From: Saprospiraceae bacterium
Lineage (GTDB): Bacteria; Bacteroidota; Bacteroidia; Chitinophagales; Saprospiraceae
Direction: 5' to 3'
DNA: 64,000 bases
Assembly: GCA_027080725.1 (NCBI GenBank)
Contig: JALWRC010000105.1
Location: forward strand, 1-64,000
The position numbers were made by a program, and so were the translations under genes. Positions within the stretch are counted from its first letter, which is position 1, and every line of letters starts with the position of its first letter. Below are positions 1,393 through 62,902 of this stretch, piece after piece. Under the pieces are notes generated by a model. It did not search any database. It saw nothing but the letters and a program-made list of their open reading frames with translations, and was not told where the DNA came from.

Positions 1393-4300
1393 TCACCTAA
1401 GAATGATAGAAACATTGCCTGTCCGCGAAAATTGCTCGTCGTTAATGCAGGTGTATCGAAGTATGAAATTGTACACGTCAGAAGTCAAGCCTCTCCCTTT
1501 GAACCGGCCATCCCATCCCTCGCTTTGGTCAGTGGACTCAAACACTTTCTCTCCCCATCTGTCATAAATACTCAAGTTCATATCCTTTATCACATAGCCG
1601 CGCACGCGTAACTCATCATTAACACCATCTCCGTTGGGCGAGAACGCATTGGGAAGAAATACCCCTTTTTCGCAGTCCAAAGGCAACACGTGAACGAGGA
1701 CGGTATCCATCGCCATACATCTATATTCATCCGTCACTTTGACCTTAAACACCACATCACCCGTTTCGTTTAATGTCGCTACGGGGGACTTTTTTGAAGG
1801 ATCGTCCAACACATCTGTTGGGGTCCATTGGTAGGAATACCCACCGGGCTCAACATCCAATTGCACGGTACGCCCTACTACAACACGCCTTGGATCAGCA
1901 GTTGCTACTACCTCCCCATCGTCAAATCCATGAACATTAATATCAATATCTTCTTCATACACACAACCATCACCGTAGGTCACCCGAACGTGATAGGTAT
2001 GTGCCGCCTTCGTCGGACGGACAATGATTTTCGGATCGATTAACTCTACTTGCTCACTAATTCTCCAAGTAACATGAATCGGCTCTCCATGGTTTACGAC
2101 TTCTAAGACAACACTATCTCCCGAACAAACATCCTTCGCGTAAACTACTTCAAAATCCGGATGATACGAGCGAATGAATACCGTATCACGCGTAACACAT
2201 CCCAAACTATCTGTCACTTTAAGGATATAATTAGCACTGTCCTTGGGTGAAAACCGGATTGGATTGCCCGTCCCAATGGTATTGCCGGAAGCGTCACACC
2301 AAGATAGACTGCCTCCGTCCGGAGACACCTTTACATCGAGCGTCAAGGTATCCATATCACAAAGTATGGTATCCACCGGCAAGTTGGATATGGTAAATTT
2401 GGGACCGACCTTCACCTCTACGTCCAATTCCATTTCACACTGGGGAAATGAAGGGTCTGTCACCGTCACATGAAAGGTTTGCGAGTGATTCAGCTTTGCA
2501 CGTGGATTGGCCGAAGTGCTATCATCCAAAAATACTCCGGGCCTCCATTGGTAGGTCAAGGAAGTATCTCCACCCGGATTGAGGTCTACCTCCCCACTAC
2601 CATAACATATGATCTGCTCGCCGGGGATATGTACGTTCCTACCCCCATAAACAATCCTTCGACTACTCACACCCTGGCATTCCTCCTCTTCGCCTGCTCG
2701 CACATAGATCGTTGTGTCCGTATCTACCGTTATCTTAAGGGTATCATCTCGGGATATAACATCTGTAAAACCATCATTATAAGCCCACTCAAAAGTAGTG
2801 GTCCCGGGGGAATGTGCTACAAGGACCACCTGCCCATCACAAGTCGTATCTGTCCCCGTGATAACAACAGGAATCGTATCATGCACCTCGACATAAACAG
2901 AGTCCACAAAGGAGCACGTATCATTAGTGATGGTCACATGATAAGTCGTACTCTCATCGGGTGATGCGATGGGATGTCCGGGGTCAGATAAGTTGAGGCC
3001 CTCCGTAGGTGACCACTTATAATGATAAAACGGGCGGGAGGATTGAAGCAAAGCGACCGAATCTCCTTGACAAATCTCCAGGCTGTCCCCGGCCCACTCT
3101 ATATCGATATTCGGCAGGTAAAGGGATTTTTCGAGGCTAGCTTTACACCCGTTGACATCAGTAACTTCGAGCGTCACCTTCACCTTAGCACCTTTAATCA
3201 ATCTGACGGTAGCACTCTTACCCGAAGCTGTATAAGTCCCCTTGGGGTCTACCACCTTCCACTCCCATCCGACGAGGCTATCATTACCGGTAGCTTTACT
3301 TGTAAGCACCAAGGCTACAGAGTCCTCACACAATAATTCATACTCGAAGTCCACCTTAATATCGGGATGAAGCACTTTTAGGATATGAAAGACAGAATCG
3401 GTACATCCATCGTTATCCACCTTTAACAGCACCTTGTACGTTCCGGCAGAATCAAAGGTAAAGGTTGGATTTTCCTCAGTTGAAGTCTTTGTCCGGTCTC
3501 CATCTGCATCAAAAAACCACTGATATTTTTTTGCATTCGTGGAAGTATTTTTAAACGACTGGGTCAATCCGTCACAGGGGTCCGAGGACACTTCAAAATC
3601 CGCTACGGGCTTTTCTCCACAAGCTCTGACATTGAACTCAAAATCCCGGTACGTTATTCCAATCAATTGGCCGTTTCTATACTCCTTTACACACACTCCC
3701 ACCAGGTACTGCCCAATGGTAGAGGGCACCGCGGTCATAAATCCGGTATTCGCATCAATTGTCAATGGGTCCCCTCCCATAATGTCCGTCAGAGAATACG
3801 GTGCCTTCCATACCACCGGCTCGTAGGGAGGAGGATCGGCCTTTAAAGACTGAGGCCGTGCAAATGTCAAACCTTGAAATGGGGCGCAAAGCGAATACTC
3901 GAGACGGTCTCCATCTGCATCCTTCGCTGCATGGTCAAACCGCAGAGGCAGGCCAGAACAAATATAAATAGGGGCCCATGCATTAAATTCCGGAGAGGAA
4001 TTGCAGAGTCCCTCCGATTCGGGTAATATGTGGGCAAAGTAGGTGGTACCGGTCAACAACGGATCAACAATATTATTGAGGGTCCAGTTGCGGCAACATC
4101 TTTGATATGCCAAAATATATCCGGAAGCTTCCCCGCCGGGTAAAAAGACCGTACCGGTGTATTTGGCCTCTTCGACACAAACCGGATTTCCCTGTGAGAT
4201 ACAGCCTCCATCCAAGTCTGAATCCACCGGTGTGACGCCCAGAAATTTCATTGCTACATAGCCGTTTTGACCGAGCTGCACTAAAAAATTGCCCTCACCG

Positions 4301-4503
4301 TTATAAATCGTCAGGTGTAGATCTTTATCGAATGGTTCCTGACCAAATTCGCAATCCCGACGTATAGTTAGAGAAAATTCGTACATCCCGTGCCCAAGAC
4401 ACTTGTACGTAATATTGCCACCCACGATGTGTGTTGCCATAGCAACATGCGCGCTCAATACGCTTACTATAGTAATTAGTACAAATCGAAAAATCGTTTT
4501 CAT
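1393..4503 (-). CDS. giant PKD-domain cell-surface protein with T9SS type B (CHU_C) sorting domain
   Basis: Secreted adhesin-like protein of 1036 residues. A Sec signal peptide covers about residues 1-23 and ends in VAMA. A Cys-rich N-terminal region follows, then PKD/Ig-like beta-sandwich repeats (for example GTYKVLLKVDNDGC at about 350, and repeats with the pattern YxWxP...L.dp....P.a). The C-terminus (about 945-1036) is the gliding motility-associated CHU_C domain with PNAFSPNGDGVND, YDRWGEKVFES and GWDGRFKG, the type B T9SS sorting signal. Type B cargo in other Bacteroidota depends on a PorP/SprF-like partner, and one lies two genes upstream in the same transcription direction. The start codon is the ATG ending a dispersed hairpin repeat at 4504-4627. 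Ligand unknown. Confidence 0.88.
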   Translation of the reverse strand: MKTIFRFVLITIVSVLSAHVAMATHIVGGNITYKCLGHGMYEFSLTIRRDCEFGQEPFDKDLHLTIYNGEGNFLVQLGQNGYVAMKFLGVTPVDSDLDGGCISQGNPVCVEEAKYTGTVFLPGGEASGYILAYQRCCRNWTLNNIVDPLLTGTTYFAHILPESEGLCNSSPEFNAWAPIYICSGLPLRFDHAAKDADGDRLEYSLCAPFQGLTFARPQSLKADPPPYEPVVWKAPYSLTDIMGGDPLTIDANTGFMTAVPSTIGQYLVGVCVKEYRNGQLIGITYRDFEFNVRACGEKPVADFEVSSDPCDGLTQSFKNTSTNAKKYQWFFDADGDRTKTSTEENPTFTFDSAGTYKVLLKVDNDGCTDSVFHILKVLHPDIKVDFEYELLCEDSVALVLTSKATGNDSLVGWEWKVVDPKGTYTASGKSATVRLIKGAKVKVTLEVTDVNGCKASLEKSLYLPNIDIEWAGDSLEICQGDSVALLQSSRPFYHYKWSPTEGLNLSDPGHPIASPDESTTYHVTITNDTCSFVDSVYVEVHDTIPVVITGTDTTCDGQVVLVAHSPGTTTFEWAYNDGFTDVISRDDTLKITVDTDTTIYVRAGEEEECQGVSSRRIVYGGRNVHIPGEQIICYGSGEVDLNPGGDTSLTYQWRPGVFLDDSTSANPRAKLNHSQTFHVTVTDPSFPQCEMELDVEVKVGPKFTISNLPVDTILCDMDTLTLDVKVSPDGGSLSWCDASGNTIGTGNPIRFSPKDSANYILKVTDSLGCVTRDTVFIRSYHPDFEVVYAKDVCSGDSVVLEVVNHGEPIHVTWRISEQVELIDPKIIVRPTKAAHTYHVRVTYGDGCVYEEDIDINVHGFDDGEVVATADPRRVVVGRTVQLDVEPGGYSYQWTPTDVLDDPSKKSPVATLNETGDVVFKVKVTDEYRCMAMDTVLVHVLPLDCEKGVFLPNAFSPNGDGVNDELRVRGYVIKDMNLSIYDRWGEKVFESTDQSEGWDGRFKGRGLTSDVYNFILRYTCINDEQFSRTGNVSIILR

Positions 4504-4627
4504 CCGTTTGCTTTTTATAGTCTTTTAAAGGTCAGATGCAACCTTGGATGATTAAAACAATCCTTTCACCAGTCCAGTCGGGACAGGTTTTGTGTGTTTA
4601 ATAATTGTCTAATCATGTCGGTTTCAT
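4504..4627 (-). repeat. dispersed micro-ORF/hairpin element, copy upstream of adhesin gene
   Basis: Read on the minus strand, this begins with a micro-ORF ATGAAACCGACATGA (M-K-P-T-stop; first base 4627). A stem pairing ATTAGACAAT with ATTGTTTTAAT follows, with an enlarged loop compared with the other copies. The 3' box CATCTGACCTTTAAAAGAC then leads, after about 18 nt, into the ATG of the adhesin gene at 4503. The same layout lies upstream of xdhC (24052-24289) and of the DUF4340 gene (62796-62902). Function unknown; the placement suggests a 5' leader. Confidence 0.7.
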
Positions 4628-23711: not shown

Positions 23712-24051
23712 ATCAATCTAAAGGTTTTAACTTCGATATTGTCGTTGAGCTCAAAAGGAATAGCAGAATATTAGCTACTGGAGAATAGAAAAACCACACT
23801 TCGAGCAAATATGACGGTAAAATTAAAAAAACATTTTAATTCCACAAAGAATACACAAGGGTTTTCTATAATCCAACTCGAAATTACCGCAGGAAAATCG
23901 TTTAATGATGTATTTAGTATGACACCCCAACAGGTAGAGTCCGTTTATTAACCAAAAATGTCCTATTTTTGAAGTGCGTACCATATATTAGAGCCAGTTT
24001 TACCATTTCATACCCGATAAATTATATCACAAAATCAAATCACTATTTTAT
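23712..24051. other. intergenic region between divergent coxG and xdhC
   Basis: AT-rich, with no supported gene. It holds one exact copy of the 13-mer ACCATTTCATACC (24002-24014). The divergent layout means both the cox operon and xdhC promoters should lie here or in the following repeat; no TAnnTTTG box at convincing spacing was seen. Confidence 0.5.
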
Positions 24052-24294
24052 GACCTTTAAAAGACAATAAATAGTAAGCAGATGAAACCGACATGATTAA
24101 AACAATTATTAAACCCACCAGGGAATGATTGTTTTAATCATCAAAGGTTCCATCTGACCTTTAAAAGACAATAAATAGCAAGCAGATGAAACCGACATGA
24201 TTAAAACAATTATAAAACTCACCAGGAAATGATTGTTTTAATCATCAAAGGTTCCATCTGACCTTTAAAAGACAATAAATAGCAAGCAGATGAA
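24052..24294 (+). repeat. 104-bp tandem repeat with micro-ORF and hairpin, ending in the xdhC start
   Basis: Two full 104-bp units (24052-24155 and 24156-24259) and a third 5' portion (24260-24294). Each unit has the box GACCTTTAAAAGACAATAA, then a micro-ORF ATGAAACCGACATGA (at 24082 and 24186), then a stem ATGATTAAAACAAT / ATTGTTTTAATCAT with a loop of about 20 bases, then CAAAGGTTCCATCT. In the third unit the ATGAAA at the same place is the xdhC start (24290). Units differ at a few bases only, so the duplication is recent. Dispersed single copies lie at 4504-4627 and 62796-62902. Confidence 0.85.
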
Positions 24295-25357
24295 AGAAAT
24301 AAAAGATATCATCCAAGCATATGACCAATTGGACAAAAAATCCATCAGACTGGCTTTAGCCACCGTCATCTATGTCGCCGGTTCCTCTTACCGGCGAACG
24401 GGAGCGCGCATGCTGGTGCAAGACAACGGGACTTACACGGGGGGCATTAGCGGTGGATGCCTGGAGGGCGATGCTTTGAAGAAAGCCAATTACTGTCTCG
24501 CACGCAACAAAACGGAGTTGGTGCGCTACGACACCACTAAGGAAGGAGAGGATGAAATCGGGGTGGGCCTCGGCTGCAATGGCATCATCGACGTGTTACT
24601 CACTCCCATTGATACCGCTTCCCCCGACAATCCGGTCGAGCTCCTCCGCTCTTGTATAAATGACAGGGCAACGCATTGTCTCATCACCATCGTTTCCTCC
24701 GACCGAGAAGACCTTCCAGCCGGTAAGATGTTCCGGTTTGACCGGAATAATAACCTGCCGGAAGAACTTAGTGCGGATGCCATCAAAGCGCTTCAATCCA
24801 ATAAATCTGTGGTAAAAACTTACGAGGATTTCACTGCCTTTATTGAGATTATTCCGCCCGCCTTGCGCGTGGTGCTGTTTGGTTACGGCTACGATATTTA
24901 TCCTCTTTTAAGGCTCGGCAAGGAACTTGGCTGGGAAATGTGTCTTTCCACTAATCCACTGAAAGCTGCACCGGCTATGAAATCGTTGGCTTCTTCCTTT
25001 TACCCCACCGGTGAGGCCATCCCTGTGGACGATTATACTGCGTACGTGCTCATGGCGCATGATTATAATACAGACAAAAACAATCTCTCCATGGCCCTCC
25101 ATTCCAACGTCCCCTACATCGGCATGTTGGGTCCGCTTAAACGTCGTGCAAAAGCGCTGGAGGAATTGGAAGAGGAGGGACAAAAGTTCTCTGCCGGACA
25201 ACTCGAGCGTTTGTACAACCCTGTAGGATTGGATATCGGGGCCACCTCTCCGGAAGAAATAGCTCTTGCCATCCTTTCAGAGATACGCGCACATTTCTCG
25301 GGTAAAAACGGAGGTTTTTTACGATTAAAGCGGGGCCCTATCCACCAAAGGGAGTAA
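24290..25357 (+). CDS. XdhC/CoxI family molybdenum hydroxylase maturation protein
   Basis: Cytoplasmic 355-residue protein that in relatives binds the sulfurated molybdenum cofactor and hands it to xanthine-dehydrogenase-family apoenzymes. The N-terminal CoxI domain shows YVAGSSYRRTGARMLV and YTGGISGGCLEGD, with the Cys characteristic of XdhC; the C-terminal Rossmann domain has VVLFGYGYDIYPLL (an altered Gly motif) and ends with PYIGMLGPLKRR and a SPEEIALAILSEI block. It is divergent from coxG and next to a cysteine desulfurase, consistent with cofactor sulfuration. Its start lies within the tandem repeat. Confidence 0.9.
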   Translation: MKEIKDIIQAYDQLDKKSIRLALATVIYVAGSSYRRTGARMLVQDNGTYTGGISGGCLEGDALKKANYCLARNKTELVRYDTTKEGEDEIGVGLGCNGIIDVLLTPIDTASPDNPVELLRSCINDRATHCLITIVSSDREDLPAGKMFRFDRNNNLPEELSADAIKALQSNKSVVKTYEDFTAFIEIIPPALRVVLFGYGYDIYPLLRLGKELGWEMCLSTNPLKAAPAMKSLASSFYPTGEAIPVDDYTAYVLMAHDYNTDKNNLSMALHSNVPYIGMLGPLKRRAKALEELEEEGQKFSAGQLERLYNPVGLDIGATSPEEIALAILSEIRAHFSGKNGGFLRLKRGPIHQRE

Positions 25358-60610: not shown

Positions 60611-61828
60611 TCACTTCAGGTGGCACCCGGATGTCTCCACCTCATTCTTGATGGAATCCTGTAAATTCGCACGACGCAAATACCGGAACCTCCAATCTTT
60701 GGGAAGCTCCGGCTGCCCTGCATCGACCCAGGCCGTCATCCACAGCGAGCCTATACCACGTATAGCGGCGCGCATTCTGTCTTCCACCATGTCGTGCATG
60801 GATGATTCGTATTGGGAAGCAAACTCGGAAGATTCTTTCCGGACGATCTGCCCACTACGTTCGATAAATTGATATTGCTTATCTGCGGGAATTGCATTTC
60901 TAAGCGAATCCTCCACATGGAGCACCCTATCTACGAGCCGGTGAGAAGAACGGACGACATTCGATGCCCATTGCTCGACATCATCGATATACTTGGCCTT
61001 ACCTGCAAACAAATCAAATTCCCGTTCGGCCATGAGTTCGGGAATGCGCGTCTCCCAAAATGCGTGAATGCCCTCCTGCCCCGTTTTTTGTCCGTCGTAA
61101 TTGGAAGTGGTGTGCAAGGGGACATGCGCATCCGCTATGTAATGCCCCAAATCCGCTGAAATCCGAATAATAGCAGCATAACGATGGTGCTCGAATGCAT
61201 TCCTCAAACGGCGATACTGATAGGCTATAATAAAAGGCACGACACCGTGCTTGGCTCCATGAATCCCCTGATAACAATCATACTGTGAAAATCCGGAAAA
61301 AAACACGGGAAAATCCTCCAAAACTTGCTCTTCGGGAAGTTGCATTAAGAGGGCAGCTGACAGCGAATCCAAATATGTTAGAACGTTGTTGGACACATCC
61401 ACCTCGCTTTTTAAGCTATCCCTCGAATAAATCATCGTATCGCGCCCATGTATGAGTTTCAAATAATAAAACTTCATCGCAAAGCTGTCCCAGGCTGCCG
61501 GCAGATTCCTCCCGGCATCATCCCAATAGTCCAAATCGATGTAATGCCGGATGGCTTCATGAGACGAACTGTACCTCCGTCTATCCGGGTCCACGGCATG
61601 TTCGTAGAGATAGGAGGCATTGGTCTTATAAAAAGGGAGCATGTCGTAAGGGAGGGTAAATACCGCATACTTGTTGATCAACTTATGCGGATAGAATCCC
61701 CATGGAACAGAAGTATTTTCTCCCATCAAAGAAAGCGCAAATACAACCAATACAAACAAGACGCTCAGCGAAAGGAACTTACTTGCGCATGACGAAAAAA
61801 TCCGGGTATTTTGCAAATATTTTCTCAA
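60611..61828 (-). CDS. zinc-dependent phospholipase C family protein
   Basis: Exported protein of 405 residues with a signal-like segment (KFLSLSVLFVLVVFALSLMG). Bacteroidota zinc-dependent phospholipase C / S1-P1 nuclease-like signature: WGFYPHKLINKYAVFTLP near residue 43, RRYSSSHEAIRHYIDLDYWD with metal ligands, GHYIADAHVPLHTTSNYDGQ near 226 and IHAFWETRIPEL near 255. The zinc-binding His and Asp residues are all present. Hydrolyses phospholipid or nucleic-acid phosphodiesters; which is not known. The ATG at 61828 overlaps the DUF4340 stop by 50 bp, so the start could be later, but a clean later ATG would remove the signal. Confidence 0.85.
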   Translation of the reverse strand: MRKYLQNTRIFSSCASKFLSLSVLFVLVVFALSLMGENTSVPWGFYPHKLINKYAVFTLPYDMLPFYKTNASYLYEHAVDPDRRRYSSSHEAIRHYIDLDYWDDAGRNLPAAWDSFAMKFYYLKLIHGRDTMIYSRDSLKSEVDVSNNVLTYLDSLSAALLMQLPEEQVLEDFPVFFSGFSQYDCYQGIHGAKHGVVPFIIAYQYRRLRNAFEHHRYAAIIRISADLGHYIADAHVPLHTTSNYDGQKTGQEGIHAFWETRIPELMAEREFDLFAGKAKYIDDVEQWASNVVRSSHRLVDRVLHVEDSLRNAIPADKQYQFIERSGQIVRKESSEFASQYESSMHDMVEDRMRAAIRGIGSLWMTAWVDAGQPELPKDWRFRYLRRANLQDSIKNEVETSGCHLK

Positions 61829-62795
61829 TTAGGGGTCTTTGGACCAGTACCAGGTCATTATCATTTACCTTACAAACATAGCGAAAAAAATCGGGACTGG
61901 CAGGTGAATACCCTTTGATATCGATTTTTCCCTTTTCCGCATTAAAGGGAAAGACCTGGATAGCGATGCTCTTATCTCCTGTTGATAAGTGTACATTGGC
62001 GAAAGGGACAACATTGGGTAAGGTGTCACGAATAGGGTTTTTATTGATAAAACCCTCCACTTCGACCTTACTAAAATGGTACAAATAATCCTCTAACAAG
62101 CTTTGATTCGGCTCGCTGCCGGTTGGGCGGGGTGTGCCCTGGGCCAAGGGACTTATCACAAGAGATTGTCCGGCTTTCTGTTGGATTCTAAACCCATCCC
62201 CTTCTGCATATGGATATTCGACGGTGACCTCTTTGATTTGGGAGGGTTTATAAGGAAAGATAAACGGGTCCCGCAAGTCATCTATCGTAAGGTCAAAGAC
62301 GGCCCGGACGTCGCCATCCGTCAGTTTTTTGTGAATCACAAAAGGCTGGTCGCTTCCGGCCAACATCGCGTAAGTGCCATAGCTATCCGGAGGCGTACCG
62401 CCCAGATAGATGGTTTTCATATTATTGCCATCCTTGTCGTACACCTCTATTTTCATAGCGTGATTGGCGAGATTGTGCATCACATTGAGATACGCTTTTC
62501 GGGGAGGTTTATACTGGATGGTTAAATCGTGTAAGGTAGCCAACATTCCCTTTACGACAGTTTGATTGGCTGGCATTCCATCGACGGTCCATCTTCCATC
62601 GTCCCCTTTTTCCAGTATGAAATGGTAGCCATTGAGGCGTTTTGCAACGAATATCTTCCGGATGTCTTGAAAGTTTTTAATTGCAAAATTCCGTTCGTAT
62701 TTCAGGAAGTCAGTAGAAGACCCACTCCAATAGTAAACCCCTCCACCTACAGCAATCAAGAGCAACAATAGGAATGGTAATCTATTATTTTTCAT
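61779..62795 (-). CDS. DUF4340 domain membrane protein
   Basis: A 338-residue protein with an N-terminal membrane anchor (MKNNRLPFLLLLLIAVGGGV). The DUF4340 repeats follow, with NFQDIRKIFVAKRL near residue 40, GDDGRWTVDGMPANQTVV near 67 and YLGGTPPDSYGTYAMLAG near 130. The family often follows gldG in Bacteroidota, as here. Function unknown, presumably with the Gld ABC-type transporter (GldA/F/G). Its start is the ATG that ends the hairpin repeat at 62796-62902, which separates it from gldG by 236 bp. Core motif copy at 62616-62626. Confidence 0.85.
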   Translation of the reverse strand: MKNNRLPFLLLLLIAVGGGVYYWSGSSTDFLKYERNFAIKNFQDIRKIFVAKRLNGYHFILEKGDDGRWTVDGMPANQTVVKGMLATLHDLTIQYKPPRKAYLNVMHNLANHAMKIEVYDKDGNNMKTIYLGGTPPDSYGTYAMLAGSDQPFVIHKKLTDGDVRAVFDLTIDDLRDPFIFPYKPSQIKEVTVEYPYAEGDGFRIQQKAGQSLVISPLAQGTPRPTGSEPNQSLLEDYLYHFSKVEVEGFINKNPIRDTLPNVVPFANVHLSTGDKSIAIQVFPFNAEKGKIDIKGYSPASPDFFRYVCKVNDNDLVLVQRPLIEKIFAKYPDFFVMRK

Positions 62796-62902
62796 CTGTC
62801 TGTTTTTTATTGTCTTTCAATGGTCAGATGGAATCTTTGATAAAAAACAATCATGCCGATTGGTAAAAATCCTCGTCAGATTATTTTTTATGTCGATTTC
62901 AT
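62796..62902 (-). repeat. dispersed micro-ORF/hairpin element, copy upstream of the DUF4340 gene
   Basis: Minus strand: micro-ORF ATGAAATCGACATAA (M-K-S-T-stop; first base 62902), a stem ATAAAAAATAAT pairing with ATTGTTTTTTAT (one G-T wobble), the box CATCTGACCATTGAAAGAC and then the ATG at 62795. The sequence differs from the xdhC copies at many positions, but the layout and pairing are kept. Confidence 0.7.

Follow-up and report, generated by a model that had tools for sequence, protein, structure and literature searches.

Small hairpin elements that probably insert, in sense, directly at bacterial start codons

Mobile elements usually damage their target or settle between genes. Several known systems share features with the element that we describe here. 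MITE-like repeats (Correia/CREE, ERIC, RU and BOX) are likewise about 100 bp long, non-coding, close to genes and present in many copies per genome; unlike them, our element lacks terminal inverted repeats, always has ATG at its junction, lies in sense and shows covariation across a whole bacterial class. Attenuator leader RNAs also place a short ORF, a hairpin and the gene start within about 100 nt and can form mutually exclusive pairings, whereas the present element precedes unrelated genes, appears to be mobile and has a short ORF without class-wide conservation. IStrons and group I introns leave the host product intact after insertion and carry an internal guide that pairs with both junctions; our element is far too small for a known ribozyme, precedes the coding sequence and has no known splicing. 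Arrays of the TAACTGA heptamer in Beggiatoaceae, Cyanobacteria and some Bacteroidetes are also found directly 5' of the starts of unrelated genes and are patchily distributed, but they are seven-base direct repeats without a hairpin, a guide or defined ends (PMC4679880). Finally, IS200/IS605 elements such as IS608, PATEs and REP/TnpA-REP systems resemble the element in their short imperfect hairpin and fixed orientation, and IS608 chooses its target by pairing a guide with it (PMC5934647).

We propose that the repeats described below are small (about 90 to 140 nt), structured, non-coding and non-autonomous mobile elements that would insert immediately at start codons, in sense, and we put the probability of this reading, which is drawn from comparison of sequences, at about 0.65.

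Copies in the window and in its genome

The window, the 64,000-nt stretch of DNA that was analysed, belongs to a genome of 3.8 Mb (G000). An earlier note had described one layout, with a four-codon ORF, a hairpin and a box, in front of three unrelated genes and had taken it for either a mobile leader repeat or an unrecognised regulatory RNA. The layout is present at all three places, and the names of the genes (XdhC, CHU_C/Ig_7/PKD adhesin and DUF4340) were upheld. It is far from a product of chance: the 19-base box occurs five times in the window with at most 3 mismatches, against a mean of 0.09 in shuffled sequence, and none of 100 shuffles reached five. Altogether, the window holds four full copies of the element and one truncated copy. 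Where the earlier note saw a single copy before xdhC (24290..25357, plus strand), the layout stands but is doubled: two full copies of subtype A, each of 104 nt and 96% identical, lie in tandem on the plus strand, the first reaching from its left ATGAAAC to its right CAG at 24082..24185 and the second, at 24186..24289, adjoining the xdhC start codon at 24290. The right end of a truncated, older copy (24051..24081, plus strand; matching query positions 74-107) lies 5' of copy 1. On the minus strand, a full copy of subtype A with an enlarged loop (4504..4627) adjoins the start, at 4503, of the CHU_C/PKD adhesin gene (1393..4503), and a full copy of subtype B (62796..62902) adjoins the start, at 62795, of the DUF4340 gene (61779..62795). 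The distances that had been given from the ATG of the short ORF to that of the gene are correct: 104 nt for xdhC (24186 to 24290), 124 nt for the adhesin (4627 to 4503, minus strand) and 107 nt for DUF4340 (62902 to 62795, minus strand).

About 45 copies are present in G000, in which a search with the box pattern gave 52 matches and the reversed control only 1. The plan of the unit is ATGAAAC, a hairpin, GTTCCATCTGACC, an A-rich tail and CAG, followed by the ATG of the gene, in sense orientation; the copies of G000 can be read as one unit, ATGAAACCGACATGATT-stem-loop-stem-CAAAGGTTCCATCTGACC-WTTRAAAGACAATAAAAAGCAAACAG, with ATG next, and the base preceding the left ATG varies among them. They fall into subtypes A (MKPT*) and B (MKST*), the stems of which differ by compensatory changes. 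In three mixed tandems (contigs C28, C69 and C15) a B copy is upstream and an A copy adjoins the gene, as though new copies enter at the gene's ATG. Codon 2 of the host genes that abut hairpin copies in G000 is AAA in 20 of 22 and AAT in the other 2, compared with AAA in 8 of the 39 genes of the window. From their N-termini, we take hosts in G000 to include purH, queA, an osmC-like gene, sppA, an M29 peptidase gene and an ABC permease gene. Across genomes, dnaN, lpxB, purH, pheT and galE are among the hosts, with unrelated functions. G000 also contains a 75-nt deletion derivative (contig C35, near 9493) that still abuts a gene start codon, and four solo right ends, made up of box and tail without the hairpin, upstream of ATGs, for example before fabD.

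A covarying hairpin and guide-like motif

The element folds into a lower stem, ATG.AAC/GTT.CAT, an internal loop and an upper stem that varies; for the xdhC copy, folding gives z = -6.2. In copy 2, fold and covariation place the upper hairpin at 24197..24245 (plus strand; arms 24197-24213 and 24229-24245). GA stands opposite GA between the lower and the upper stem in many members from the class, as judged by eye. The earlier note had treated the box as a separate part; the box is present, but its CAT sits in the 3' arm of the lower stem. A guide-like anti-start motif, GGTTCCATCTG, occupies 24250..24260 of the plus strand in copy 2 (24146-24156 in copy 1), and next to it is the A-rich tail with the terminal CAG (24261..24289, plus strand), which is new sequence just 5' of the xdhC ATG. 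In the tail, positions -6, -12 and -13 are A but -3 is mostly C; a favourable start context in F. johnsoniae has A at -3, -6, -12 and -13 (PMC6847099).

Covariation across genomes, which the earlier note had proposed to look for, is present both in the stem and in the guide-like motif. The stem has 19 covarying cells, compared with 4.8 in shuffles (none of 500 as high), and is also above slid controls. The guide-like CATNTG covaries with CANATG at the gene start, and each of the four Watson-Crick pairs occurs where the sequence varies (C-G 22, A-T 7, G-C 6 and T-A 2). The two motifs pair in 119 of 132 cases, compared with 98.5 after shuffling, and 0 of 20,000 shuffles were as high, an exact figure that is optimistic because the statistic treats lineages as independent. 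In the xdhC copies, CATCTG is complementary to CAGATG at the gene start, and the motif also pairs with the left ATG-AACC; because both pairings use the same CAT, they are mutually exclusive. A CAG|ATGAAAC junction, such as a circular form would have, is matched by the guide along 11 positions, one of them a mismatch. Where A copies depart from the usual pair, the sense strand has G-U 13 times and A-C 3 times (p 0.02), a mild hint that it is the sense strand that folds.

These features could be expected of a cis-regulatory RNA leader, in which the anti-start motif would cover either the upstream ATG or that of the gene as a translational switch, the copies would coordinate genes, and spread would be secondary. 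Both sets of covariation, the two exclusive pairings and the excess of G-U over A-C agree with such a leader, as do the sense orientation, the placement at start codons and the presence of the element at some orthologs of both G000 and its congener G001 (see below). However, the host genes share no function, the sets of host genes differ for the most part from species to species, numerous copies in G000 and G001 have no gene after them, congeners have empty sites, and the frame of the short ORF is not kept. On balance, we consider the leader an unlikely explanation of the family, while a regulatory role of the mobile element that we favour is possible.

The short ORF consists of ATG, three codons and TGA or TAA. 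It reads MKPT* (ATG AAA CCG ACA TGA) at the left end of copy 2 (24186..24200, plus strand) and likewise in copy 1 (24082-24096, plus strand), and its counterparts on the minus strand are at 4627-4613 in the adhesin copy and at 62902-62888 in the DUF4340 copy. In the element's own family it is kept, as MKPT, MKST, MKRT, MKRP or MNRP. Across the class it is not: the frame is read through in four members (L313, L324, L327 and L328), and the emphasis of the earlier note on the ORF is not borne out. Because the frame is not kept across the class, the ORF is more likely a by-product than a leader peptide; it probably reflects the left ATGAAAC together with the conserved CATGA, and would arise as the native start region comes to read into the left end of the element. 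A leader-peptide attenuator is not supported, as the reading frame is not conserved class-wide and the host genes share no pathway.

Probable insertion, placement and spread

For three copies, the flanks were joined and compared within their genus to find empty sites. At galE (L313), G483 has the element, and G557 and G336 are contiguous (92% identity): AAAAAAGAAAATTAACA directly precedes ATGAAAATACTC in the latter two, and G483 reads AAAAAAGAAATTAATA, the element from ATGAAACGAGTC to AAACAG, and then ATGAAAATACTC. At a second site (L329), the element is present in G336 and G557 is contiguous (95% identity); the empty site of G557 is CAGTTAAATT followed by ATGCGATTA, and the filled site of G336 is CCGTTAAGTT, the element from ATGAAACGACC to AAACAA, and then ATGAGACTAAGA. 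In both empty sites the native upstream flank directly meets the native ATG, which is the exact position of the element. The comparison also indicates that the second codon at the right-hand side is the native one (ATGAGA, with ATGCGA and ATGAGA in homologs) and that the left end is ATGAAAC. Each empty site is a difference between species rather than an observed event, and gain appears likelier than loss because the element is so widely spread.

Split operons provide further evidence of how precisely the element is placed. At four loci, the left ATGA supplies the TGA stop of the upstream gene of an operon and the right ATG is the start of the downstream gene, and a fifth split ATGA stop/start overlap was read from sequence (L310). 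Both genes stay whole in all five cases. The C-terminal lengths of two of the upstream gene products match those of homologs; one is proline-racemase-like (GFQVI* versus GFQVS*) and the other is an ABC ATPase. Mobility and precise placement are hence well supported at the sequence level by the many copies per genome, the two empty sites, the split ATGA overlaps and the tandem stacking. The mobile side of the earlier alternative is thus supported, and its regulatory side is possible. Two congeners, G558 (L340/L357, contig C41) and G523 (L310, contig C58), share the element at an orthologous start codon; in G558 the match between the guide (CATGTG) and the right end (CAGATG) has been lost.

The copies are in sense orientation and most of them immediately precede a start codon, the arrangement that the earlier note had suggested checking. 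When copies without another copy next in line are counted, 24 of 35 in G000 directly adjoin an ORF of 60 aa or more and 11 do not. The corresponding numbers are 17 of 17 at gene starts in G118 and about 22 of 25 among class representatives, and representatives from many families end exactly at the gene's ATG, nearly always ATGAA. G001 is less start-biased, with about 10 of 24 copies away from starts. As a background, non-coding ATGAA sites of the window lie at starts and elsewhere in a ratio of 12:35, and against it the bias of the copies is significant in G000, in G118 and in the sample from the class (Fisher p 2e-5 or less); the 30:12 used for G000 in this test was counted by hand, with indel variants and solo right ends included. 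A clear interruption of a gene was seen for none of the copies. Because non-start copies exist in G000 and G001, the preference may partly reflect survival, and the bias could stem either from insertion that favours start codons or from faster loss of copies elsewhere.

As a DNA sequence, the element is missing in 40 relatives, among them the congener G001, which at first suggested a species-specific repeat. This was overturned by the shared layout in G001: the leaders of orthologous genes there carry a different repeat that ends at the ATG, a 140-nt version that occurs at least 51 times and is built alike (ATGAAACGAACATGA, hairpin, GGTTNCAT, tail, ATG). Of 15 orthologs compared between G000 and G001, three clearly and three more probably have the element in both, with very different sequences, which would not be expected of a simple random inserter. 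Three such pairs (L062, L066 and L088 in G001; L020, L002 and L043 in G000) carry very different versions and look, from their sequences, as though old copies gave way to new ones at the same start codon.

Covariance models for the diverged versions (R1 and R2; E-values rough) found these in 9 of 150 genomes of the family, 36 of 395 of the class (the sampled class is taken as Bacteroidia, on the basis of named relatives of XdhC) and 6 of 396 of the phylum, often in many copies. G118 has 18 copies and G806 has 8, with hosts in G806 that are, judging by sequence, presumably dnaN and lpxB among others. The family could in principle consist of AT-rich hairpins brought together by chance, or of mobile promoters spread by recombination, with no dedicated insertion mechanism, and many of the class-level matches indeed have modest E-values of 1e-4 to 1e-3 under a rough calibration. 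This explanation is highly improbable, as it is already contradicted by the reversed control (1 match versus 52), covariation above shuffles, exact ATG junctions in independent genera and precise empty sites.

Phage and plasmid collections gave no match to the element, and neither of two pattern matches on viral contigs had a full element. One viral contig (IMGVR_UViG_3300010430_006947) has ATGAAACGCAT-GTTCCATCTGAC-tail-CAGATGAA before an ORF, without the hairpin, and this is possibly a deleted copy in a phage. At three loci each in G065 and G162, the loop or the stem of the element itself contains inserted short palindromic repeats of other kinds (for example, CCTGCCTGCCGGCAGGCAGG). Rfam had no match at the gathering score in the window or in 14 diverse loci; permissive searches returned only sub-threshold matches to eukaryotic miRNAs or snoRNAs and a staphylococcal sRNA, or none. 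A literature search, with subscription journals mostly outside its coverage, found no description of the element family. The family is real, wide and apparently undescribed.

Candidate movers and the proposed recognition of start codons

What moves the element? No mover was identified from linkage to Y1_Tnp (PF01797) or in the surroundings of solo right ends. Near the solo right ends examined (at fabD, a TPMT-like gene and an AAA-ATPase gene) there was no transposase or second end of an autonomous parent. The element could be of the REP/PATE type and be moved in trans by an IS200/IS605-like Y1 (HUH) transposase, and Y1_Tnp is present in 9 of 11 carriers. In addition, the hairpin with its interrupted stem, the fixed orientation, the short fixed target kept at the left with no long target duplication, and the guide-like motif complementary to both junctions resemble IS608 (PMC5934647) and REP/TnpA-REP (PMC8266576). 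However, the domain was not found in one carrier, G065 (95% complete), whereas 13 of 19 non-carriers have it, and the Y1 genes of carriers have no copy of the element at their flanks, so a link to Y1_Tnp is not supported. At four loci these genes are preceded by other short repeats (for example, GTCCTGAAAGGACGG, by eye), which are perhaps their own REP partners. The guide is 3' of the hairpin in our element and 5' in IS608; the analogy is a functional one only, and the element further departs from IS200/IS605 kin in having one hairpin, a start codon as target and a right end with a translation start region. Hence, we think it quite unlikely that a Y1 enzyme of this kind is the mover.

The left end of the element, ATGAAACC, and its right end, AAACAG, do not form an inverted repeat, and no known transposase class therefore fits. 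A variable target-site duplication was not seen either; the left and right flanks do not covary and have only ATG(A) in common. Both in split overlaps and in empty sites, the ATG(A) of the left junction resembles native sequence, and either ATG could be the original. A MITE of a DDE transposase does not fit, as there are no terminal inverted repeats and the left is a constant ATGAAAC while codon 2 on the right is native (for example, ATGAGA). An integron attC site, suggested by the AAC/GTT stem, was set aside on the position of the junctions alone, and self-splicing on the small size of the element and on the finding that no copy clearly interrupts a gene.

We hypothesize that on insertion the tail would replace the native translation-initiation region, such that the full protein of the host gene and its translation are preserved, and insertions in essential genes could then survive. 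The guide-like motif would direct recognition of the ATGs at the left and right junctions during transposition, in the manner of IS608; in addition, it may enable the RNA to cover one or the other start codon. A more far-reaching proposal, which we hold tentatively and at somewhat less than even odds, is that these elements form a new mobile class that recognizes start codons as such by a guide to the junction ATGs and brings its own translation-initiation region, so that any gene, even an essential one, could be invaded with its protein undamaged, and that the class-wide set constitutes fast-evolving, exchangeable 5' leaders. Recognition by the guide would possibly involve RNA or else exposed strands.

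In summary, the element settles where a gene is most sensitive, at the start codon, and leaves protein and reading frame unharmed. Its proposed mode of insertion would account for repeated leaders across a bacterial class, and short upstream ORFs in carrier genomes may be by-products of insertion. The copies would represent a natural set of transplanted translation-start regions for the study of initiation without Shine-Dalgarno sequences, and they raise the testable question of what moves the element and how it finds start codons.
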